A program made the position numbers and the translations under genes. This document shows positions 4,742 through 30,951 of a DNA stretch of 64,000 nucleotides, one piece after another. Below the pieces are notes generated by a model that saw nothing but the letters and a program-made list of their open reading frames with translations, made no database searches and had not been told where the DNA came from. Position 1 is the first letter of the stretch. Each line of letters begins with the position of its first letter. Source of the DNA: Oscillospiraceae bacterium (lineage in GTDB: Bacteria; Bacillota; Clostridia; Oscillospirales; Acutalibacteraceae); contig SVPV01000007.1 of NCBI GenBank assembly GCA_015065725.1, forward strand, positions 1-64,000, written 5' to 3'.

Positions 4742-4781
4742 TAATGCTGTGTATTATTTGCGATACACAGCATTAATTTTT
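4742..4781 (+). terminator. Intrinsic terminator downstream of antiporter
   Basis: taatgctgtgtat / atacacagcatta 13-bp stem followed by atttttt. Confidence 0.8.
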
Positions 4782-4830: not shown

Positions 4831-4859
4831 TTGACAAATGTTCTTAAAAATAGTAAAAT
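4831..4859 (+). promoter_or_regulatory. Sigma-A-type promoter of the polysaccharide operon
   Basis: TTGACA (4831-4836), 17-nt spacer, TAAAAT (4854-4859), about 110 nt upstream of the first ORF. Confidence 0.7.
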
Positions 4860-4971
4860 AGAATGTGTCTTTATATGCTGGTGTTATTATGTCCATAGGC
4901 GATTAGAAAAGCACACTTTAGGCTAATTTGTTTTTAATATTTTAAAGTAAGGTGTATTGAGGGTTACATAT

Positions 4972-5604
4972 ATGTATAGTAAATATTTTAAACGATTATT
5001 GGACTTTGTTTTATCACTGCTTGCAATAATTGTACTTTCGCCGGTCTTGCTAGCTTTGACTGTGATTGGTGCCTTTGCGATGAAAGGCAATCCGTTTTTT
5101 GCACAACTTCGCCCAGGAAAAGATGAGAAGATTTTTAAACTTATAAAGTTCCGCACAATGACCTGTGAAAAGGACAAAAACGGAGAGCTTTTACCCGATG
5201 ACGTAAGACTTACAAAGTACGGCAAATTCCTACGTTCAACATCGCTTGATGAGTTGCCTGAACTGTTTAACATTCTTAAGGGTGATATGTCAATTGTTGG
5301 TCCAAGACCGCTGTTGGTACAATATCTGCCTTTATACAATGAACAACAAAAACATCGTCATGATGTACGACCAGGGCTTACAGGGTTTGCACAGGTCAAG
5401 GGAAGAAATGGTGTTTCTTTTGAGGAACGATTTAAATTTGATATTGAATACATACAAAATATTTCATTAAAAACTGATATTGCAATTATTTTTAAAACAG
5501 TAACAATCGTTTTAAAGAGTGAAGGTATTAGCTCAAATACCTCGGAAACGATGGAATATTTTACAGGAACACCTGAAGAAGAGAAGGAGACTACAAGCGT
5601 ATGA
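4972..5604 (+). CDS. Undecaprenyl-phosphate sugar-1-phosphate transferase (initiating glycosyltransferase)
   Basis: KRLLDFVLSLLAIIVLSPVLL, FFAQLRPGKDEKIFKLIKFRTM, LRSTSLDELPELFNILKGDMSIVGPRPLL, RHDVRPGLTGFAQVKGRN. ATG at 4972 with GAGGG 8 nt upstream preferred over TTG at 4957. Confidence 0.93.
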   Translation: MYSKYFKRLLDFVLSLLAIIVLSPVLLALTVIGAFAMKGNPFFAQLRPGKDEKIFKLIKFRTMTCEKDKNGELLPDDVRLTKYGKFLRSTSLDELPELFNILKGDMSIVGPRPLLVQYLPLYNEQQKHRHDVRPGLTGFAQVKGRNGVSFEERFKFDIEYIQNISLKTDIAIIFKTVTIVLKSEGISSNTSETMEYFTGTPEEEKETTSV

Positions 5605-6566
5605 CGGATAAAACAATCCGTATTTTGTTTACAAGTGTTGGAAGGCGTGTTGAACTTGTGCAGGAATTCAAAGCTGCCGCTGAGACACTTAACTGCAAAT
5701 TAGAAATTTATGCTGCAGATATCACAGATACGGCTCCTGCACTAAACTTCTGTGACCATGCTGTAATTGTTCCGCGTATTAACGATGAGGAATACATACC
5801 TAGTTTATTAAAATATTGCAAAGAGAATAAGATTACTGCACTTATTCCTACAATTGATACCGACCTTTTGATCTTAGCAAAAAACAAAAAGGTTTTTGGG
5901 GAAGTTGGAACGTTTGTTTTAGTAAGCGATGAAGATAAGATAGCTATATGCAGAGATAAACGGTTAACATCTTCTTATTTTGAGTCAGTAGGGTTGTTAA
6001 CGCCGTATCCCATTGATAATTATAAAGATTATTGTGGTGGGTTTCCGGCATTTATAAAACCTAAGGATGGAAGTTCAAGTGTTTTTGCTTATAAGGTAAA
6101 TAATCAACAAGAGCTTGAAAATTATGCAAATCAAGTTCCGGATTATATTATTCAACCTTTTATTGATGGTACGGAGTATACGGTTGATGTTTTTTGTGAT
6201 TTTGAAGGAAATCCCATTTATATAACTCCACGAATTCGTCTTGCTGTGCGTGCAGGAGAAGTTTTAAAAACTAAAATAGACCAAGATGAAACTATTATTG
6301 ATGAAATTAAAAAGTTAATTGCTGATTATAAACCGTGCGGTGCGATTACGATTCAACTTATTCGCCAAAATAAAATGGGCAAAAATTATTATATTGAGAT
6401 AAACCCTCGATATGGTGGCGGTGCTCCTCTTACGATGAATGCGGGGGCAAATTCTGCAATCGCAGTGCTTAAACTTCTTATAGGAGAGAAGATAAGTTAT
6501 ACACCGAAAGCTGCAGTCGATGGTGCGATTTATTGTCGATTTGATCAAAGCGTAAGGGTGAAATAG
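5601..6566 (+). CDS. ATP-grasp domain protein (CarB-like)
   Basis: ATP-grasp features: GGFPAFIKPKDGSSSVFAYKVNNQQEL, YIIQPFIDGTEYTVDVF, YYIEINPRYGGGAPLTMNAGAN. Confidence 0.85.
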   Translation: MTDKTIRILFTSVGRRVELVQEFKAAAETLNCKLEIYAADITDTAPALNFCDHAVIVPRINDEEYIPSLLKYCKENKITALIPTIDTDLLILAKNKKVFGEVGTFVLVSDEDKIAICRDKRLTSSYFESVGLLTPYPIDNYKDYCGGFPAFIKPKDGSSSVFAYKVNNQQELENYANQVPDYIIQPFIDGTEYTVDVFCDFEGNPIYITPRIRLAVRAGEVLKTKIDQDETIIDEIKKLIADYKPCGAITIQLIRQNKMGKNYYIEINPRYGGGAPLTMNAGANSAIAVLKLLIGEKISYTPKAAVDGAIYCRFDQSVRVK

Positions 6567-6568
6567 TC

Positions 6569-7201
6569 GTGCTGGAAGTAAGCAAACTTTATGATGCAAC
6601 AAGTTATCTACTAAAATATTCTGTTGTTATTTTTGATTTAGATGATACATTGTATTCTGAAAAAGAATATATTAAAAGCGGTTATGCAGAAATTGCTCGC
6701 AACTTTAAACAAATTGATGATATGGAAAACAAGCTTTGGAATGCTTTTAAAGATGAAAAACCTGCAATTAATTATGTTTTAGAGCAAGAAGGTTTGTTTT
6801 CAAATGATGCTTTAAATTTTTGTCTTAATATTTATAGAAATCATATTCCCCAAATATCGCTTTATCCTGATGCTGAAAAAATGCTCGCTTCTCTTAAAAA
6901 ACAGGGAATATCACTGGGTATGATTACCGATGGCAGACCGGAGGGGCAACGTGCGAAGATTAAAGCATTAGGAATCGAGCATTTTTTTGACAAGATTATT
7001 GTAACGGATGAGCTTGGTGGTATTGAATTTAGAAAACCTAATACAATAGCATTTGAGAAAATGCAAAAACATTTTAATGTTCTATATGAAGCTATGGTCT
7101 ATTTGGGTGATAATCCTAAAAAAGATTTTATTGCACCAAAGCTATTAGGAATGAATAGTATATATTTTAAAAACCCTGATGGGTTGTATTCAAATAATTA
7201 G
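6569..7201 (+). CDS. HAD-family hydrolase
   Basis: DxD motif VVIFDLDDTLYSEKEYI; GMITDGRPEGQRAKIKALGI; VYLGDNPKKDFIAPKLLGM. Confidence 0.88.
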   Translation: MLEVSKLYDATSYLLKYSVVIFDLDDTLYSEKEYIKSGYAEIARNFKQIDDMENKLWNAFKDEKPAINYVLEQEGLFSNDALNFCLNIYRNHIPQISLYPDAEKMLASLKKQGISLGMITDGRPEGQRAKIKALGIEHFFDKIIVTDELGGIEFRKPNTIAFEKMQKHFNVLYEAMVYLGDNPKKDFIAPKLLGMNSIYFKNPDGLYSNN

Positions 7202-8438
7202 TAAGGAAGGGATCGATATAAACGTTTTATTTTTATCTTTATTAGATTTTGATTCATTGGATGAAAGAAATATTTATACCGATCTATTGCGTACTTTTAA
7301 CAAGAATGGACATAATTTGTATGTAATTTCTCCTGTTGAAAGACACAAAAATCAACCAACTCGCATTATAGAAAATGGTAATGTTTCAATTTTAAAACTT
7401 CGCATAGGAAATACACAAAAGACTAATATTATAGAAAAAGGTATTTCAACCTTAACCCTTGAAAATTTGGTAAAGAGCGGGATAAAAAAATATTATTCCA
7501 ATATTAAATTTGATTTGGTTTTGTATTCAACCCCTCCAATAACATTTGCAAATGTTATTGAATATGTTAAAAAACGCGATAATGCTAAAAGTTATCTTTT
7601 GCTTAAAGATATATTTCCTCAAAATGCTGTCGATATTGGTATGCTGACTAAAACCGGACTAAAATCTATTCTTTATAAATTTTTCAAAAAGAAAGAAGAA
7701 AAGTTATATTGTTTATCGGATTTTATTGGTTGTATGTCCCAAGCGAATATAGACTATTTGATAAAGAATAACACTGGTATTGATAAATCAAAACTGCATA
7801 TTAATCCGAATAGTTTTGAGGTTCAAGACATTAAATTTGATGAAGAAAAAAAGGAAGAAATTTATAATAAATATTCAATACCGAAAGATGTTACAACTTT
7901 TTTGTACGGAGGAAATTTGGGCAAACCACAGGATATACCGTTTATTATTAACTGCTTGAAATATAATCTGGATAAAGAGGATAGATATTTTGTGATTTGC
8001 GGGAACGGCACGGAATACGGCAAGTTGAAATGTTTTGTAGAAAAATATAATCCTAAAAATGTTCGACTTTTAGATTGGGTGCCGCGTGCCGAATATGAAG
8101 ATTTTATTAAATATTTTGATGTTGGCTTAATTTTTCTTGACCACCGTTTTACAATACCGAATTTCCCATCAAGATTACTTTCTTATATGCAAAGTAAAAT
8201 GCCGATTCTTGCTTGTACAGATAAGAACACTGATATTGGTAAGGTTATAACCGAAAATAATTTTGGTTGGTGGTGTGAGAGTAATGACGAAACTCTTTTC
8301 ACACAAAAAGTTGATGAAGCGATAAAATCAGATTTATCTTTGTTGGGTGAAAATGCTTTTTCTTATCTTTCTAAACACTATACAGTGGATTTAAGTTATC
8401 AAAAAATTTTAAATTGTTTTTTAAAGGAGAACATTTGA
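7179..8438 (+). CDS. Glycosyltransferase, GT4 (WbuB-like)
   Basis: LLLKDIFPQNAVDIGMLTKTG; FLYGGNLGKPQDIPFIINCLKY; NFPSRLLSYMQSKMPILACTDKNTDIG. True start may lie downstream of 7179. Confidence 0.82.
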   Translation: MGCIQIISKEGIDINVLFLSLLDFDSLDERNIYTDLLRTFNKNGHNLYVISPVERHKNQPTRIIENGNVSILKLRIGNTQKTNIIEKGISTLTLENLVKSGIKKYYSNIKFDLVLYSTPPITFANVIEYVKKRDNAKSYLLLKDIFPQNAVDIGMLTKTGLKSILYKFFKKKEEKLYCLSDFIGCMSQANIDYLIKNNTGIDKSKLHINPNSFEVQDIKFDEEKKEEIYNKYSIPKDVTTFLYGGNLGKPQDIPFIINCLKYNLDKEDRYFVICGNGTEYGKLKCFVEKYNPKNVRLLDWVPRAEYEDFIKYFDVGLIFLDHRFTIPNFPSRLLSYMQSKMPILACTDKNTDIGKVITENNFGWWCESNDETLFTQKVDEAIKSDLSLLGENAFSYLSKHYTVDLSYQKILNCFLKENI

Positions 8439-9631
8439 TGAAAGTTTTGCAAATAAATTCTGTGTGCGGTATTCGTAGCACAGGAAGAATTTGTACGGAT
8501 ATTGCAGAAGTATTGGAAAAAGAAGGCAATGAGTGCAAAATCGCCTATGGCAGAGAAACTGTGCCGGAAAAATATCAAAAATACGCTATAAGAATAGGCT
8601 CTGATTTTAGTAATAAGGTTGATGCAATAAAAACTCGTATATTTGATAATGCAGGCTTTAATTCCTCAAAAGAAACAAAGAGATTTTTAAATTGGGTTAA
8701 AGGGTATGATCCTGATATTATCCATTTGCACAATATTCATGGATATTATATAAACATTGAATTGCTTTTCGAATATTTAAAAGAATCAAACAAACCGGTT
8801 GTTTGGACGTTGCATGACTGTTGGCCGTTTACTGGGCATTGTGCATACTACGATTATTTCGGTTGTGAAAAGTGGAAAACACAGTGCTGTAATTGCGAAC
8901 AAACAAAGGAATATCCTTCTGCAATTTTTAAGGATATGTCTAGAAAAAATCACAATAAAAAAACTGCATTTTTCAGTGCGGTTGATACATTGCAGTTTGT
9001 TGCAATTTCAAATTGGATTGCACTGCAAAAAGAACAGTCTCTTTTGAAGTCAAAGCCTCACACGATTATTCACAACGGTATTGATCTTATTCGATTCCAA
9101 CCTACAATTAGTACCTTTAGACAAAAATGGAGAATCGTTGACAAAAGAGTATATTTAGGGGTAGCGAGCGTTTGGGATCGTCGAAAAGGTTTTGATACAT
9201 TCTTAAAACTGTCCGAAATGATTGATGAAAATGAAGTTATTGTTATGGTTGGTGTTACTAAAGAGCAAAAAAAACTTCTCCCTAAAAATATAATAGGTAT
9301 AGAAAGAACTAATAATGTTCAAGAGTTGTCAGAGATTTACAGTGCAGCAGATGTGTTTTTGAATCCTACGATGGAGGATAATTATCCTACTGTTAATATG
9401 GAGGCTATCGCTTGCGGTACCCCTGTTGTTACATATGACACAGGCGGAAGTCCCGAAAGCATTTCCAAATCAAGCGGAGCAGTTGTGCCAAAGGGAGATA
9501 TAATGGCATTACTAAAAACCGCACGTTCGCTTGAATTAGATAGCGAAAAAGTGGCACTTGAAGCACAAAAATTTGATAAAGAAAGAAAATATAAAGAATA
9601 TTTGCAGTTCTACGCGAGGTGCTTAAAGTGA
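8438..9631 (+). CDS. Glycosyltransferase family 4 with Cys-rich insert
   Basis: DIIHLHNIHGYYINIELLFEYL; TLHDCWPFTGHC...CEKWKTQCCNCEQ; EIYSAADVFLNPTMEDNYPTVNMEAIACGTPVVTYDTGGSPE. ATG at 8438. Confidence 0.9.
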   Translation: MKVLQINSVCGIRSTGRICTDIAEVLEKEGNECKIAYGRETVPEKYQKYAIRIGSDFSNKVDAIKTRIFDNAGFNSSKETKRFLNWVKGYDPDIIHLHNIHGYYINIELLFEYLKESNKPVVWTLHDCWPFTGHCAYYDYFGCEKWKTQCCNCEQTKEYPSAIFKDMSRKNHNKKTAFFSAVDTLQFVAISNWIALQKEQSLLKSKPHTIIHNGIDLIRFQPTISTFRQKWRIVDKRVYLGVASVWDRRKGFDTFLKLSEMIDENEVIVMVGVTKEQKKLLPKNIIGIERTNNVQELSEIYSAADVFLNPTMEDNYPTVNMEAIACGTPVVTYDTGGSPESISKSSGAVVPKGDIMALLKTARSLELDSEKVALEAQKFDKERKYKEYLQFYARCLK

Positions 9632-10266
9632 TTAGTTTTAGCGGTATAGACTGTGCGGGAAAATCAACTCAAATAGATTTGATTGCGAAAAGTTTTAAAG
9701 ATAAAAATAAAAAAGTAAAGATTATTCATTCCAGAGGCGGATATACACCGCTATTGGAGGCTGTTAAAACTTTAATTCGCAAGGATAAGGGGCTTAATAT
9801 AGAGAAACAAGATGTTTACCGTGAGCAAATACATAAAAACTCTAAAAAAAGGAAAATACTTTTGTGGGTGTCTATTTTTGATATTGCTCTTTATTATGGT
9901 ATATATTTTCGCTTGGTTGAAATTTTTGGAACGAAAATCTTGGCTGACCGTTATTTTTGGGATTCTTATATTGATTTTAAACTTAAATATTCGGAATTTG
10001 ATTTTGAAAATTGGTTGGTTTGGAAGCTTGCAAAACTAATTTATTTAAAACCTAAAAAAGCAATAATTTATACTATTCCCACTGAATTATCAATGTATAG
10101 GTCTACTTTAAAGGATGAGCCTTGGCCCGAAAATGCCGAACAAAGAAAAATAAGAATAGAAAAATATATGGAAGAAATTGAAAATGGCAGATGGACTTCT
10201 ATTATTGATGCAACGCCTTCAATTGAAGAAGTTTTCGATAAAACTATGGAGTATATATTAAAATGA
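9619..10266 (+). CDS. Thymidylate-kinase-like P-loop protein
   Basis: P-loop FSGIDCAGKSTQIDLIAKSF; LADRYFWDSYIDFKLKY as in dTMP kinase-like folds. Confidence 0.75.
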   Translation: MLKVISFSGIDCAGKSTQIDLIAKSFKDKNKKVKIIHSRGGYTPLLEAVKTLIRKDKGLNIEKQDVYREQIHKNSKKRKILLWVSIFDIALYYGIYFRLVEIFGTKILADRYFWDSYIDFKLKYSEFDFENWLVWKLAKLIYLKPKKAIIYTIPTELSMYRSTLKDEPWPENAEQRKIRIEKYMEEIENGRWTSIIDATPSIEEVFDKTMEYILK

Positions 10267-11321
10267 AAATAACTTATATGAGGTTGTGCGAAGATTTCGA
10301 CCGCATAAATAAAGAAACATTAAATTCTTTTTATACCAATTCTGATAAAGAAACGGACTTATTTGTTTATCCCGAACTTAATGCGATTATCGTTAGAAAC
10401 CCATCAAAAAAAGTTAAAAAGTTTATATATACAGAATATTCCGTGTCGGGCTCTATATTTAAGCGTATTGCAGTTTGGTGCTATATTAGATTACTGCTTA
10501 ATTCTTTTGGGCTTTTAGCCAGTAGCAGAATAAGGCAAAAAGGAGATATAGGTTCAAGCGTACTTCTATATCCTTGCAATAAAAAATATAGAATTTTCGA
10601 TTTTGCTTCAAATACTGTTACAGTATTAACTAAAAGCGGTTTTCCAAATTCGGCTATAAAGGAAGAAATAGATTTTAGAAATAACCATAAAGTCGACTTT
10701 ATACTTCCTTTGAAAAATTTTAAAGAAAATCAATATACAGAGGAAATAATCGACGGTATGCCGCTGGCTAGAATAAAAAATGACAAAGAACAATATATAG
10801 AAACGGCAAACAAAATTTGGAGAGAATATGCTTCTAAATATGATAAAGAAATCTCTCCCAAAGAATACTGTGATATTATAAATAAGAGTTTATCAGAAAA
10901 ACTTGAAATTTTAAAAAGCAATATAGAAGACGGTGCAATAACAAAACTTCAAGATACAATAAAAGAACTTTGTTTAAAAATTATTTTGTTTGATTCTAGT
11001 ATTACCATAACTTTAAGTCATGGTGATTTGCAACCTGGAAATATATGGATAGAAAATATTACCGACAAGGTATATATTATCGATTGGGAAACCGCTAAAT
11101 TGAGAAGTGTTTGGTATGATGAGTTTCTGTTGTATGAGGGTTTGCGAATGCCGGGAGGTTTAAATAAGCTTTTTGAATTAAAACCAAGTCTTCGTAAATA
11201 TGTGGTGATTTTAGAAGAATTGTTGTATAGATTAGATGATGCTTGTTGTTTGCCAAATGATATAAGGGGGAAAACTCTTGATGGAATCTCAAATGATTTC
11301 GATGTTTCAAATATTAAATGA
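10263..11321 (+). CDS. Phosphotransferase (APH/choline-kinase-like fold) protein
   Basis: LSHGDLQPGNIWIENITDKVYIIDWETAKLRSVWYDEF matches HGDxxxxN...IDWE of the APH superfamily. Confidence 0.7.
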   Translation: MKITYMRLCEDFDRINKETLNSFYTNSDKETDLFVYPELNAIIVRNPSKKVKKFIYTEYSVSGSIFKRIAVWCYIRLLLNSFGLLASSRIRQKGDIGSSVLLYPCNKKYRIFDFASNTVTVLTKSGFPNSAIKEEIDFRNNHKVDFILPLKNFKENQYTEEIIDGMPLARIKNDKEQYIETANKIWREYASKYDKEISPKEYCDIINKSLSEKLEILKSNIEDGAITKLQDTIKELCLKIILFDSSITITLSHGDLQPGNIWIENITDKVYIIDWETAKLRSVWYDEFLLYEGLRMPGGLNKLFELKPSLRKYVVILEELLYRLDDACCLPNDIRGKTLDGISNDFDVSNIK

Positions 11322-12471
11322 TCCACTGGTTGATTTAATGTTATCTTTGAGTGCAGAAAATCGCAAAAATAGGGAAGAACTGTTAAACAAATTAAAGAAT
11401 ATTGATGTTTTACAACTTTTCGAACTGTGTGTCGAGCATGAACTTGACGGCATAGTCGCTTCGCATATTATGGAGGATGATTTAATCGAACTTCCTGAAA
11501 TTTGGCTAGAGGCATATAACAAACAAAAAGAGTGTCAGACCTTTTTGAAACAGAAAGCCATAGAAGTATGCGGTAAAATGCACGAAAACGGCATAAAAAT
11601 GGTTATTCTAAAAAACGGCGGAATTATGCTTGATTTAATTGAGGACCCTGCGGCATGCCCGATGGAAGATGTTGATTCTTTGGTGCGTAAAGATGATTTT
11701 TATAAAGCACATGAGATTTTGTTATCCCAAGGCTTTAATTTTAAGTTCCGTAGTGAATTTGAGTTTGAGCATTTAGAAGAAGCGTTCAAAGATGGTGCAA
11801 CTGAATATTATTTAACTATGCCTAATAGCGAAAAAATATGGTTTGAATTGGCTTGGCGGGCTGTTGCAGGAAGATGGATACGTCCGGATTTAGAACCTGA
11901 TACTGATTTGTTTATAGAAAATTCTCATACGGCGAAAGGAACGTTTGCAGGTGTTTTATCCCCAGAAGATAATCTTTTGCAAGTTTGTATTCATACCGCA
12001 AAGCATTCTTATGTTAGAGCACCTGGTTTAAGACTTCATTTGGATGTTGATAGAATAGTATCGCATTGCGAAATTGATTGGGATTTATTTTTAGAGAAGG
12101 TAAAACAATCGCACACAAAATCGGCCATTTATTTATCATTGTGGATTCCGACTTGTTTGTTTGATACTCAAATTCCGCAATATGTATTAGAAGCGTTAAG
12201 GCCCAAAAAAAGAAAACTTATGGTTTTGTGCAAAGGATTATCAAATACGGGCTTGTTGCACCCGAAACAAAAGAAGTTTTCAAAATTAGCCTTTCTTCGT
12301 TTTCAAACCGCAATTTATGATTCATATAAAGATGTGATTAAAGTTATATATCCAAGTTCAAAATGGATGAAGGAGCGTTATGGATATAAATCTTCATTTT
12401 TAACCCTTAAATATATTTTGGTAAGAACTTTGGATTTAGTAGGGATAAGAAAAAAGAAAGCGAGTAAATAA
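11281..12471 (+). CDS. Nucleotidyltransferase-fold family protein (PF14907-like)
   Basis: KMVILKNGGIMLDLIEDPAACPMEDVDSLVRKDDFYKAHEILLSQGF with a DxD in the NTase position; IHTAKH...LRLHLDVDRI. Confidence 0.65.
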   Translation: MESQMISMFQILNDPLVDLMLSLSAENRKNREELLNKLKNIDVLQLFELCVEHELDGIVASHIMEDDLIELPEIWLEAYNKQKECQTFLKQKAIEVCGKMHENGIKMVILKNGGIMLDLIEDPAACPMEDVDSLVRKDDFYKAHEILLSQGFNFKFRSEFEFEHLEEAFKDGATEYYLTMPNSEKIWFELAWRAVAGRWIRPDLEPDTDLFIENSHTAKGTFAGVLSPEDNLLQVCIHTAKHSYVRAPGLRLHLDVDRIVSHCEIDWDLFLEKVKQSHTKSAIYLSLWIPTCLFDTQIPQYVLEALRPKKRKLMVLCKGLSNTGLLHPKQKKFSKLAFLRFQTAIYDSYKDVIKVIYPSSKWMKERYGYKSSFLTLKYILVRTLDLVGIRKKKASK

Positions 12472-12472
12472 A

Positions 12473-12553
12473 ATGCGATATTTATTTTTCGGTTTGTTGT
12501 TTGAGCCGAAATATGAGCAAAAAATGTTGGCACTTTCAAATTCAAATATTTAA
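12473..12553 (+). pseudogene. Possible N-terminal remnant of a glycosyltransferase
   Basis: 26-aa ORF MRYLFFGLLFEPKYEQKMLALSNSNI* immediately after the preceding gene; resembles the beta1/alpha1 start of GT4 proteins but stops at once. Confidence 0.3.
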
Positions 12554-12633: not shown

Positions 12634-13908
12634 ATGAAAAAACATATTGTTGTAATGCTAGGGGGATATTATCCAGTGATTTCTCCCGGAAGTATGATAC
12701 TAGATAGGTTAATCGATATTTGGAAAAAAGAATATGATGTCACTATAATTTCTACAAGGAATGTTTTTGGATTGAAAAAGATAGAAACTATTGATGGGAT
12801 TAATATTCATAGAGTTTATGATTTTAACAGGCTGATTCATAACGAATTAGAAAATAAAATTAAGAACACTACGGGACTATATAAGCATTTTTTTAAAGCT
12901 TGTCTTAGAATTAAACAGGTTCTTTTTTATATTTACCGTGTTTTTCGTTTAGAAAGTATAGATAATAATTATGTAAATAGGTTAAAAAAAGAAATTAAAA
13001 ATATAAATAACAATAGAAAGATAGATATACTTATTTCAACAGTTGACCCACATGAAAACAGTGCGGCGGCATATTTATACGCTAAAAAAAATAATGTTAA
13101 ATGGTTTATTTATCAGTTGGATAGATTTGCAAACGCCAATAGTCTTTACGAAACGGAACTCACTAAAAAGGTGAAGATGAGTAGGCATTACAAACGGGAA
13201 TGTTCTTATCTTGAAAAATGTGAAAAATTGTTTGTGTTAAAACCTATTATGGAACATTACCGAGAGCATTGTTTTAACGAGTATTTACAAAAAATCATTG
13301 TAACAGACCATCCGTTGTTATGCAAGCCAGCTATAGATGTGGTTGGTAGTGGTATGATGGATAGTATTCGTTTTATATATGCAGGATCGCTTGATAAAAA
13401 GTTAAGGAATCCTACAAATATTCTAAAAATTTTTTCCATTGTGTATAAAAAAACATCTTTAAAACTTGATTTTTTTTCTTTTGGAAATTGTTCGGATATT
13501 CTTGAGGAATACCATAATACAAATCCAACAGTGATAGAAAACCATAATAGGATTTCAAGAGAAGGTCTAGTTAATGAAATTTGCCGTAGCGATGTTATAG
13601 TAAGCATTGGTAACAATTCGGATAACGAGGTTCCAAGTAAAACGTTTGATTATCTCTCTTATGGATTGCCAATAGTTCACTTTTATTCAAATCCCAAAGA
13701 TCCCGTGTTAGAGTATATGAAGATTTATCCTATGGCTATATGTTTATATATGGGTGATGAATCTACTGATTCAAATGTTAAGAAATTGATTGATTTTTGC
13801 AGTAGCATAAACAAAAGAAAATTAGATTTTAAAGAGGTAGAAGCACTTTATCCTATGTGCACACCAGAATTTGTTTCGAAAATGTTTACAGAGGAGTTTA
13901 ATAAATGA
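12634..13908 (+). CDS. Glycosyltransferase (GT4-like)
   Basis: GGYYPVISPGSMILDRLIDIWKKEYDVTIIST; RFIYAGSLDKKLRNPTNILKIF; SDNEVPSKTFDYLSYGLPIVHFYSNPKDP. Confidence 0.78.
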   Translation: MKKHIVVMLGGYYPVISPGSMILDRLIDIWKKEYDVTIISTRNVFGLKKIETIDGINIHRVYDFNRLIHNELENKIKNTTGLYKHFFKACLRIKQVLFYIYRVFRLESIDNNYVNRLKKEIKNINNNRKIDILISTVDPHENSAAAYLYAKKNNVKWFIYQLDRFANANSLYETELTKKVKMSRHYKRECSYLEKCEKLFVLKPIMEHYREHCFNEYLQKIIVTDHPLLCKPAIDVVGSGMMDSIRFIYAGSLDKKLRNPTNILKIFSIVYKKTSLKLDFFSFGNCSDILEEYHNTNPTVIENHNRISREGLVNEICRSDVIVSIGNNSDNEVPSKTFDYLSYGLPIVHFYSNPKDPVLEYMKIYPMAICLYMGDESTDSNVKKLIDFCSSINKRKLDFKEVEALYPMCTPEFVSKMFTEEFNK

Positions 13909-20061: not shown

Positions 20062-20910
20062 ATGAATTCGTCAGTTCAGCAAACACAAAAACTTAAAAGT
20101 GTGGAATTGGAAATTCTCAAGTATTTTATAGATATTTGCGAAAAAGAAAATATACAATATTTTTTAATCGGCGGTACGGCTTTAGGGGCTGTACGTCATA
20201 AAGGGTTTATACCTTGGGACGATGATATTGATGTTGGTATGCCAAGGGCTGATTATGAAAAATTCATCAGTGTCGCTCAAAAATATTTGCCTGAATATTA
20301 TTTTCTTCAAAATTTTTATACAGATCAAAATTATCCTAATAATTTTTCAAAAATCCGAGATTCGCGAACTGCATTTATAGAAACTTCATGCAGAAATATC
20401 GATATGAATCATGGTGTTTATATCGACATATTTCCTTTGGACGGATATCCTGCAACAAAATTACCTAGTAAAATTTTTGATTTTAAAAAAAAGTTGATCA
20501 ATAGTCGTATTAGTATGGTTTTTGAAACTTATCAGGCAAAAAGTTTAAAAAGCAAAATCGCTTTGTTTTTATTGAAAATTGTTTATCCGAATTATAGAAC
20601 AGCAGTTAGAAGTAGAGAAACACTTTATAAAAAATATAACTATTCAGACTCAAGGTATGTTGTTAATCATGGTGGTGCTTGGGGGCGGAAAGAAATTGTG
20701 TTAAAATCTTATTTTGGTAACGGGGCACTTGGAGAATTTGAAAATTTAAAGGTGATTATACCTGAAAATTATGATCAATATTTAAAAAATGTATATGGCG
20801 ACTATATGACATTACCCCCTAAAGAAAATAGAAAGGGTCATCATTACTGTACGGTTATTGATTTGGAAAAATCATATATTGAATATTTAAGCGGTGATAT
20901 AAAACAATAG
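20062..20910 (+). CDS. LicD family protein
   Basis: YFLIGGTALGAVRHKGFIPWDDDIDVGMPRADYEKF is the LicD signature; GVYIDIFPLDGYP. Confidence 0.92.
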   Translation: MNSSVQQTQKLKSVELEILKYFIDICEKENIQYFLIGGTALGAVRHKGFIPWDDDIDVGMPRADYEKFISVAQKYLPEYYFLQNFYTDQNYPNNFSKIRDSRTAFIETSCRNIDMNHGVYIDIFPLDGYPATKLPSKIFDFKKKLINSRISMVFETYQAKSLKSKIALFLLKIVYPNYRTAVRSRETLYKKYNYSDSRYVVNHGGAWGRKEIVLKSYFGNGALGEFENLKVIIPENYDQYLKNVYGDYMTLPPKENRKGHHYCTVIDLEKSYIEYLSGDIKQ

Positions 20911-22383: not shown

Positions 22384-23565
22384 ATGAACGATTTGCAAAA
22401 AAATGTTATAAAGCTCATAAAAAGTGCTTTAACAGGTGAAAAATATCAGTTTGCTGCTGATTTAGATATAGATATAATAGTTAAGATCGCAAAAAAGCAC
22501 CAAATACAAGCGATTGTATATTACGGTGCACTGAACTGCGGACTTTCAAATGATCTTCCTGAAATGCAGAAATTGTTTCTGGAAACCTGCGGATTTATAT
22601 CTATAAGTGCACAGCAAATGCACGAGCTTAAAGAAATTTTCCAACAATTTGATGTGGGTAAAATAGAATATATGCCGCTTAAAGGCACTGTTTTAAAAGC
22701 GTTGTATGCTAAACCTGAAATGCGGGTAATGAGTGATGCAGATATTCTAATACGCACTGAACAGTACAATATCATCAAGCCCATTATGGAAAAACTAGGA
22801 TATGCTGAAGCGATTGAAAGTGACCATGAGCTTATTTGGAAAAAGGGTAAGGTCACCATAGAATTACATAAGAGGCTTATACCATCGTATAATAAGGATT
22901 ATTATGCTTATTTTGGTGATGGTTGGCGGTTAGGCAAACCTGTTTCAGATGACTCTACAAGATATGCTATGTCTATAGAGGATGAAATGATTTATCTTTT
23001 TACCCATTATGCGAAACATTACAGAGATGCGGGAATTGGTATAAAGCATATAGTTGATTTATGGGTTTACCGTAACAGTGTAAAAGAACTTAATAATGAA
23101 TATGTTTTAAAAGAACTAAAAAAATTACAACTTGATGTTTTTTATGAGAACACCATGCGTACACTTGATGTGTGGTTTAAAGATGTGGCACCTGACAATA
23201 CAACTGAGTTTATAACCGGAATTATTTTTAATAGCGGTGTTTATGGTACACATGAGGCACATCTTTTGTCTGAAGCACTAAAAGTATCGAAACAAACAGG
23301 AACTACTAAAAAGGTACGCACAAAAAAAATTATTCAACTGATGTTTTTACCGTATAAATCGATGTGTCAAAAGTATCCCTTCCTTGAAAAAGCTAAGATA
23401 CTTTTACCTGTCATGTGGGTTGTCAGATGGTTTAATGTTTTGCTTTTTAAGCACCAAAAAATCAAGAAAAACCAAGAAGATTTAAAAATAATGTCGGTTG
23501 AAAAAATAGACAATTACCAAAAGGCTTTAAATTTTGTCGGCCTTGATTTCAATTTTGAGGAGTAG
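22384..23565 (+). CDS. Nucleotidyltransferase-fold family protein (PF14907-like)
   Basis: IEYMPLKGTVLKALYAKPEMRVMSDADILIRTEQYNIIKPIMEKLGY; LFTHYAKHYRDAGIGIKHIVDLWVY. Confidence 0.78.
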   Translation: MNDLQKNVIKLIKSALTGEKYQFAADLDIDIIVKIAKKHQIQAIVYYGALNCGLSNDLPEMQKLFLETCGFISISAQQMHELKEIFQQFDVGKIEYMPLKGTVLKALYAKPEMRVMSDADILIRTEQYNIIKPIMEKLGYAEAIESDHELIWKKGKVTIELHKRLIPSYNKDYYAYFGDGWRLGKPVSDDSTRYAMSIEDEMIYLFTHYAKHYRDAGIGIKHIVDLWVYRNSVKELNNEYVLKELKKLQLDVFYENTMRTLDVWFKDVAPDNTTEFITGIIFNSGVYGTHEAHLLSEALKVSKQTGTTKKVRTKKIIQLMFLPYKSMCQKYPFLEKAKILLPVMWVVRWFNVLLFKHQKIKKNQEDLKIMSVEKIDNYQKALNFVGLDFNFEE

Positions 23566-30201: not shown

Positions 30202-30951
30202 GTGAAACTTGATAAAATAATTGCAGTAAGAAAAAATAAAACAATCTACCGCGACGGTAATAAGTGTATTAAAGTTTTTAATAAAGACTTTTCCAAGGCC
30301 GACGTTCTTAATGAGGCATTAAATCAAGCAAGAATCGAAGAAACAGGCCTTAATATCCCCAAAATTTTAGAGGTTACTACTATTGATGGCAAGTGGGCTA
30401 TTGTATCTGAGTATATAAGCGGTAAAACCTTAGCTCAGCTTATGGAAGAAGATGCGGAGAAAAAGGATGAATACCTAGAAATGCTTGTTGATTTACAGCT
30501 TTCTGTTCACTCTAAGGAATGCCCTCTCCTTAACAAACTTAAGGATAAAATGAATCGTAAAATCAGCGAGTCGAGTCTTGACGCTACAACCCGTTACGAT
30601 CTTCATACACGTCTTGAGGGCATGCCAAAGCACAACAAGGTTTGCCACGGCGACTTTAACCCCAGTAATATTATCATCTCCGAAGATGGTACTCCCTTTA
30701 TCCTTGATTGGTCACATGCAACACAGGGTAATGCTTCTGCTGATGCGGCTAGAACCTATCTTTTATTCTGTCTTAACAATGATATTGATGGTGCAAAAGC
30801 ATATTTAGATATGTTCTGCAAAAAAAGCAATACGGTAAGACAGTATGTTCAAAAGTGGATGCCAATTGTTGCCGCTTCTCAGTCTGTTAAGGGCAACGAA
30901 AAAGAACGTGAATTTTTACTTTCTTGGGTAGATGTTGTAGACTATGAATAA
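30202..30951 (+). CDS. Phosphotransferase (APH-superfamily) protein
   Basis: NKVCHGDFNPSNIIISEDGTPFILDWSHATQGNASADAARTYLLF. Confidence 0.8.
   Translation: MKLDKIIAVRKNKTIYRDGNKCIKVFNKDFSKADVLNEALNQARIEETGLNIPKILEVTTIDGKWAIVSEYISGKTLAQLMEEDAEKKDEYLEMLVDLQLSVHSKECPLLNKLKDKMNRKISESSLDATTRYDLHTRLEGMPKHNKVCHGDFNPSNIIISEDGTPFILDWSHATQGNASADAARTYLLFCLNNDIDGAKAYLDMFCKKSNTVRQYVQKWMPIVAASQSVKGNEKEREFLLSWVDVVDYE

Follow-up and report, generated by a model that had tools for sequence, protein, structure and literature searches.

The closest known systems to the genes studied here join kinases with nucleotidyltransferase (NTase)-fold enzymes in glycan assembly. In the Lic phosphocholine system (LicA/LicC/LicD), enzymes of the aminoglycoside phosphotransferase (APH)/choline-kinase fold and of the NTase fold are encoded among glycan genes, and on alpha-dystroglycan a short core glycan is acted on by the glycan kinase POMK and then by FKTN and FKRP, two NTase-fold phospho-sugar transferases (PMC6965139). 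Here we describe a cassette of three consecutive genes, the triad, located in a glycan operon of an Oscillospiraceae bacterium (Acutalibacteraceae; GenBank assembly GCA_015065725.1, 1.46 Mb in 22 contigs). The window, that is, the whole stretch analysed, comprises positions 1 to 64,000 of the forward strand of contig SVPV01000007.1. The triad encodes a thymidylate-kinase-fold P-loop kinase, an APH-fold kinase and an NTase of family PF14907, named NTase1.

The triad resembles the Lic system in combining an APH/choline-kinase-fold enzyme with an NTase-fold enzyme, and differs from it by an extra P-loop kinase and by an NTase that belongs to PF14907, with M-x-D-x-D in place of the triple-Asp motif of LicD. 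In three relatives (L113, L118 and L132; L-numbers label comparison loci in other genomes or contigs), LicD stands directly 3' of a glycosyltransferase gene of the GTb/GTe type, which suggests that this phospho-group transferase family is positionally equivalent to the triad. No LicC-like cytidylyltransferase was found among the operon genes scanned, a search that did not extend to the rest of the genome. The best reading is that the triad is probably analogous to LicA/C/D and yet distinct from it. Its likeness to POMK, FKTN and FKRP is also one of analogy, with no homology claimed, and the Asp essential to FKRP is absent from PF14907.

Our leading reading, which we hold tentatively, is that the triad, located in the conserved part of a Wzx/Wzy-type surface-glycan operon, decorates a lipid-linked oligosaccharide with a phosphate-containing group. 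The modification would occur on the cytoplasmic side of the membrane, while the oligosaccharide is still lipid-linked. The APH-fold enzyme would phosphorylate an alcohol group, be it that of a small alcohol, an amino alcohol or a sugar hydroxyl; the first two are proposed because its nearest structural relatives are ethanolamine and choline kinases. The thymidylate-kinase-fold enzyme would perform a second phosphoryl transfer, to an acceptor other than dTMP, and the PF14907 enzyme would then make a phosphodiester or nucleotidyl bond to the glycan. We infer the substrates, the sequence of the reactions and the product. The genes concerned are:

9628..10266, plus strand: triad gene 1, thymidylate-kinase-fold P-loop kinase without the Arg of the D-R pair (PF02223; motif and hydropathy comparison)
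10263..11321, plus strand: triad gene 2, kinase of the APH/choline-kinase fold, extended at its N-terminus by ~85 residues (ATG start)
11281..12471, plus strand: triad gene 3, the PF14907 nucleotidyltransferase NTase1 (ATG start)

A first-pass annotation had located three open reading frames (ORFs) at 9619-12471, with overlaps of 4 bp and about 41 bp. The ORFs exist as placed, and the measured overlaps are 4 bp (ATGA) between kinase and APH genes and 41 bp between APH and NTase1 genes. The kinase start is better put at GTG 9628 than at the alternative GTG 9619, because GAGG precedes the former by ~8 bases; with this start, the upstream glycosyltransferase gene GTb, which ends at 9631, overlaps the kinase gene by 4 bp. 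The ATG of NTase1 at 11281 lies within the APH gene and is preceded by AAGGGGG. The motifs GIDCAGKSTQ, HGDLQPGN...IDWE and EDVDSLV are present in the window's proteins and conserved among relatives, and Pfam scores and motifs agree with the initial fold assignments (a dTMP-kinase-like P-loop protein, an APH fold and a PF14907-like NTase).

The order kinase-APH-NTase is identical in the nine loci read whole, namely the window, L004-L009, L014 and L015. A profile search of genome contigs with the APH protein returned six loci (L004-L009), each with the three genes in this order; L007 and L008 coincide with L002 and L003 and come from the window's own genus, and L008 carries a GT2-type gene inserted between kinase and APH genes. 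The search at the level of the order added three further genomes from two other families (L014, L015 and L016). The last of these, a tenth locus, is cut by a contig end, so that APH and NTase genes are whole and the C-terminus of the kinase lies at the contig start. In L014 and L015, order and close packing are retained at identities to the window of 31-32% for the kinase, 28-30% for the APH protein and 20-22% for the NTase, and in most loci the gene starts overlap or nearly overlap. Catalytic motifs are invariant across triad members: P-loop and DRY in the kinase, HGD-N-D in the APH protein, and N-x-G and D-x-D in the NTase. Since GTb-family genes, found in ~30 loci of relatives, mostly occur without the triad, its three genes are gained and lost together. 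That the triad is one conserved functional module is well supported. The first-pass annotation would have abandoned the idea had the genes failed to co-occur elsewhere or lacked catalytic residues; the triad recurs in fixed order in other genomes, with its catalytic motifs conserved.

The APH profile matched 2 other genomes among ~60 relatives, 3 among ~394 of the order and none in a phylum sample of ~399; the cassette is therefore rare, with the patchy distribution common among polysaccharide genes. The relatives are uncultured Clostridia and Oscillospiraceae metagenome-assembled genomes from gut samples. Searches of plasmid records with the APH protein and of viral contigs with the kinase profile gave no hits.

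The first kinase shares with thymidylate kinase the fold family (PF02223, Thymidylate_kin, 42.8 bits against a cut-off of 27), the P-loop and the DRY motif. It differs from it by a low score, a lost Arg and a hydrophobic segment. With the dTMP kinase model TIGR00041 it scores 39.2 bits, below the equivalog cut-off of 83.25, a shortfall that is weak by itself as the housekeeping Tmks of relatives mostly score below 83.25 too. The P-loop and the second DRY motif are invariant in nine triad kinases. In Tmk, the Arg of the D-R pair preceding DRY/GRY binds thymine; this Arg is lost in all nine triad kinases, where D is followed by I, L or M, whereas the pair is present in 24 of the 24 housekeeping Tmks of relatives compared. 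The 25 residues around the lost Arg have a mean hydropathy of +0.3 to +1.5 in triad kinases and mostly -0.8 to +0.2 in housekeeping enzymes, and when its profile is compared with those of solved thymidylate kinases, the P-loop and C-terminal parts align and the hydrophobic segment is left out. A separate Tmk adjoins ThyX in the window's genome; the housekeeping Tmk and the first kinase are different proteins. Together, the separate Tmk, the lost Arg and the hydrophobic segment make a dTMP kinase role unlikely. Where Tmk has its base-binding helix, the first kinase has a hydrophobic one; this suggests that its substrate is hydrophobic or membrane-bound, and a hydrophobic substrate or contact with the membrane may reasonably be guessed from the sequence.

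The APH protein matches PF01633 (Choline_kinase) with 30.3 bits (cut-off 29) and PF01636 (APH) with 22.0 bits, slightly under the cut-off of 23.2. H253, G254, D255, N260 and the metal-site D274 do not vary among ten members; the same holds for K124 and for several positions of the N-terminal extension. An AlphaFold2 model (mean predicted local distance difference test, pLDDT, 88.7) was compared by Foldseek, which ranked ethanolamine/choline kinases first (E 1.8e-7, probability 1.00) and macrolide and aminoglycoside phosphotransferases shortly after, with TM-scores of ~0.4; phmmer against solved structures gave no useful match. Judged from the model, the protein clearly belongs to the APH/choline-kinase fold, a match that defines the fold and not the substrate. 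With choline/ethanolamine kinases and aminoglycoside phosphotransferases it shares fold and HGD-N-D motif, but it is <20% identical to them and adds the N-terminal extension. A second APH-like protein (30202-30951), encoded outside the glycan operon, resembles it around the HGD motif only.

NTase1 is a clear member of PF14907 (NTP_transf_5; 125 bits against a gathering cut-off of 31.2), a widespread family without assigned function, matched in 63 of 148 genomes of the class, and to which the triad adds a conserved two-kinase setting. N112, G114, D130 and D132, which form the NTase G and D-x-D motifs, are invariant in ten members. Foldseek with the structural model (mean pLDDT 84.5) returned MenT1 first (E 4.3e-4), together with LnuA and ANT(2''); TMt values are 0.53-0.66 for ANT(2'')/LnuA versus 0.59 for MenT1. 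No useful match came from phmmer against solved structures. FKRP, a relative of LicD, has the same two nearest relatives as those matched by the NTase1 model, and requires an extra Asp two places before D-x-D (PMC6965139). The place of this first Asp of the LicD/FKRP triple-Asp motif is taken by M128 in triad members and by Ser in L014-L016. NTase1 has no Pfam match to LicD (PF04991), for which the LicD protein at 20062 scores 188 bits, and profile comparison of these two proteins gave a probability of 0.2%. LicD-type transfer by NTase1 is not supported by its sequence, given the absent Asp and the lack of a LicD match, but such a reaction is possible. A membrane anchor at the C-terminus, considered for its conserved RKKK tail, was rejected, as the hydrophobic moment gave no amphipathic support.

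Another PF14907 protein is encoded in the window (22384-23565), between the UDP-L-FucNAc genes CapE and CapF. The arrangement CapE-PF14907-CapF also occurs in other families (L055, L062 and L067), and CapE adjoins PF14907 in L065 and L057 too. At L063:1144-3450 a group 1 glycosyltransferase and PF14907 are fused in one protein.

The idea that the three genes make and transfer a phosphorylated or nucleotidylated decoration, put forward in the first-pass annotation, survives as the best reading, backed by the conserved triad, its motifs and the independent kinase-PF14907 neighbours of L026/L045 and L054/L077, and is still a proposal. Several points weigh against it. Its substrate assignments are inferential, NTase1 is without the first Asp of the LicD/FKRP motif, and no transferase of a known phospho-group type is found within the conserved block. 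Shared operon ancestry alone could account for much of the synteny of L004-L009. Finally, the chemistry of kinase and NTase need not be glycan-specific, because a related gene pair occurs in a non-glycan setting, as described below. Bolder, and correspondingly more doubtful, is the claim that the triad, its first kinase acting on something other than a nucleotide, is an undescribed three-enzyme pathway for a new phosphate-containing decoration of a bacterial lipid-linked glycan, which would provide the first function for PF14907. Literature searches, from which most subscription journals were excluded, returned no mention of PF14907 or NTP_transf_5, no relevant paper for combinations of the enzyme names and no description of the triad combination; priority is not established. 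As a small, conserved and co-transcribed set of defined partners with intact active sites, the triad makes PF14907 function directly testable.

A less likely alternative is activation of a soluble compound, in which the APH enzyme would form X-phosphate, the NTase would convert it to NDP-X, the first kinase would phosphorylate the nucleotide part and a glycosyltransferase-like enzyme of the operon would transfer X. This is the logic of ATP sulfurylase with adenosine 5'-phosphosulfate kinase; in Campylobacter, the pathway to methyl phosphoramidate follows it with a phosphoglutamine cytidylyltransferase and a cytidine diphosphoramidate kinase. The two Campylobacter enzymes are named in titles cited in PMC12409886. 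That the APH protein is nearest to small-molecule kinases agrees with such a scheme, as does the repeated pairing of P-loop kinase and PF14907 elsewhere, once outside a glycan context. Among 50 PF14907 loci whose neighbourhoods were read, a thymidylate-kinase-fold neighbour occurs in two cases only: a kinase of the same family adjoins a PF14907-like protein in L026/L045 and L054/L077, in two other lineages. L026 belongs to a different family of the phylum, and its PF14907-like protein scores 24.4 bits, under the cut-off; the L026 kinase has no match in plasmids. In L077 the pair adjoins genes for an acyl carrier protein, an AMP ligase and an ATP-grasp protein, with no glycan genes. Elsewhere (L028, L052, L053 and L061) PF14907 has HprK-like or PqqD-like neighbours. 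Kinase and PF14907 protein thus seem to act as chemical partners in more than one pathway. Against soluble activation stand the hydrophobic segment that replaces the base-binding part of Tmk, a poor fit to a nucleotide acceptor, and the absence of a dedicated transferase conserved alongside the triad.

We consider it improbable that the three enzymes install independent decorations, with the NTase nucleotidylating a sugar hydroxyl in the manner of ANT(2'') or LnuA and the two kinases phosphorylating other positions. The nearest solved folds of NTase1 are NMP transferases, and co-variation among GTb, GTa and the triad is unequal across genes, both of which would fit; yet the block is retained even at 20-30% identity, suggesting a single pathway.

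Very improbable is a role in nucleotide supply, or a passenger status without any glycan function, although annotation by homology would name the first gene a thymidylate kinase, dTMP kinase being the default label for thymidylate-kinase-fold proteins of glycan loci. The Tmk beside ThyX, the TIGR00041 score, the lost Arg and the conserved glycan setting all speak against it, and dTMP supply does not require the triad; the first-pass annotation had held that none of the three genes is needed for ordinary sugar-nucleotide supply. A toxin-antitoxin or defence role, raised by the first rank of the MenT1 toxin, is scarcely credible, as ANT(2'') and LnuA fit NTase1 equally well, the triad is fixed in position inside the glycan operon and PF14907 relatives occupy glycan loci such as CapE-PF14907-CapF.

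The following features lie in and just before the operon surrounding the triad:

4742..4775, plus strand: terminator-like hairpin closing the preceding gene (14-pair stem, then a T run)
4831..4859, plus strand: promoter-like site TTGACA-17-TAAAAT before the operon (11/12 consensus matches)
4957..5604, plus strand: sugar-phosphate transferase (PF02397), with which the conserved block begins (profile match)
5601..6566, plus strand: ATP-grasp protein (PRK12767-like), in the conserved block and outside the triad (profile match)
6569..7201, plus strand: haloacid dehalogenase (HAD) phosphatase, partner of the ATP-grasp protein (profile match and locus comparison)
7179..8438, plus strand: glycosyltransferase GTa (locus comparison)
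8414..9631, plus strand: glycosyltransferase GTb, immediately 5' of the triad (locus comparison)
12473..12553, plus strand: 26-codon remnant of a glycosyltransferase gene after the triad (local alignment)

Terminator-like sites in the region are as frequent as in shuffled sequence, and the call at 4742..4775 rests on position and stem length; the promoter-like site is weak, the regional count of such sites not exceeding that of shuffles. In L004-L009 the order is DegT aminotransferase, sugar-phosphate transferase, ATP-grasp, HAD, GTa, GTb and triad, followed 3' by variable glycosyltransferase, polymerase and flippase genes. The sugar-phosphate transferase is kept in 8 of the 8 other loci whose contig covers that side. 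The window has no DegT gene 5' of the block, but another contig carries a copy with 73% identity. The remnant aligns with a score of 41 to each of the intact genes of L005 and L006, reached by 1/2000 and 0/2000 shuffles, respectively, and shows where the conserved part of the operon gives way to the variable one. ATP-grasp/HAD is replaced by a GNAT-like gene in L014 and L015, where GTb likewise gives way to a GT2-type gene. Identities of the kinase correlate with those of GTa (r = 0.97); we put this aside, since it may reflect nothing more than two clades.

ATP-grasp and HAD are fused as a single ORF at L008:4629-6269, which suggests that they form a sub-module separate from the triad. The window's LicD-family protein (20062-20910) has a diacylglycerol cholinephosphotransferase-like profile match, below the cut-off; it was rejected as a fourth cassette member, as it is not common to the other triad loci. 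A phosphodiesterase/sulfatase-like protein (PF01663) adjoins a thymidylate-kinase-fold kinase at L025:6584-8053, and another, judged by eye, adjoins a PF14907 gene on a Halopiger plasmid (L136:4767-5639). The glycosyltransferase-like protein GTc (12634-13908) has no Pfam or NCBIfam match above threshold, and its relatives stand 3' of the triad in L014-L016.

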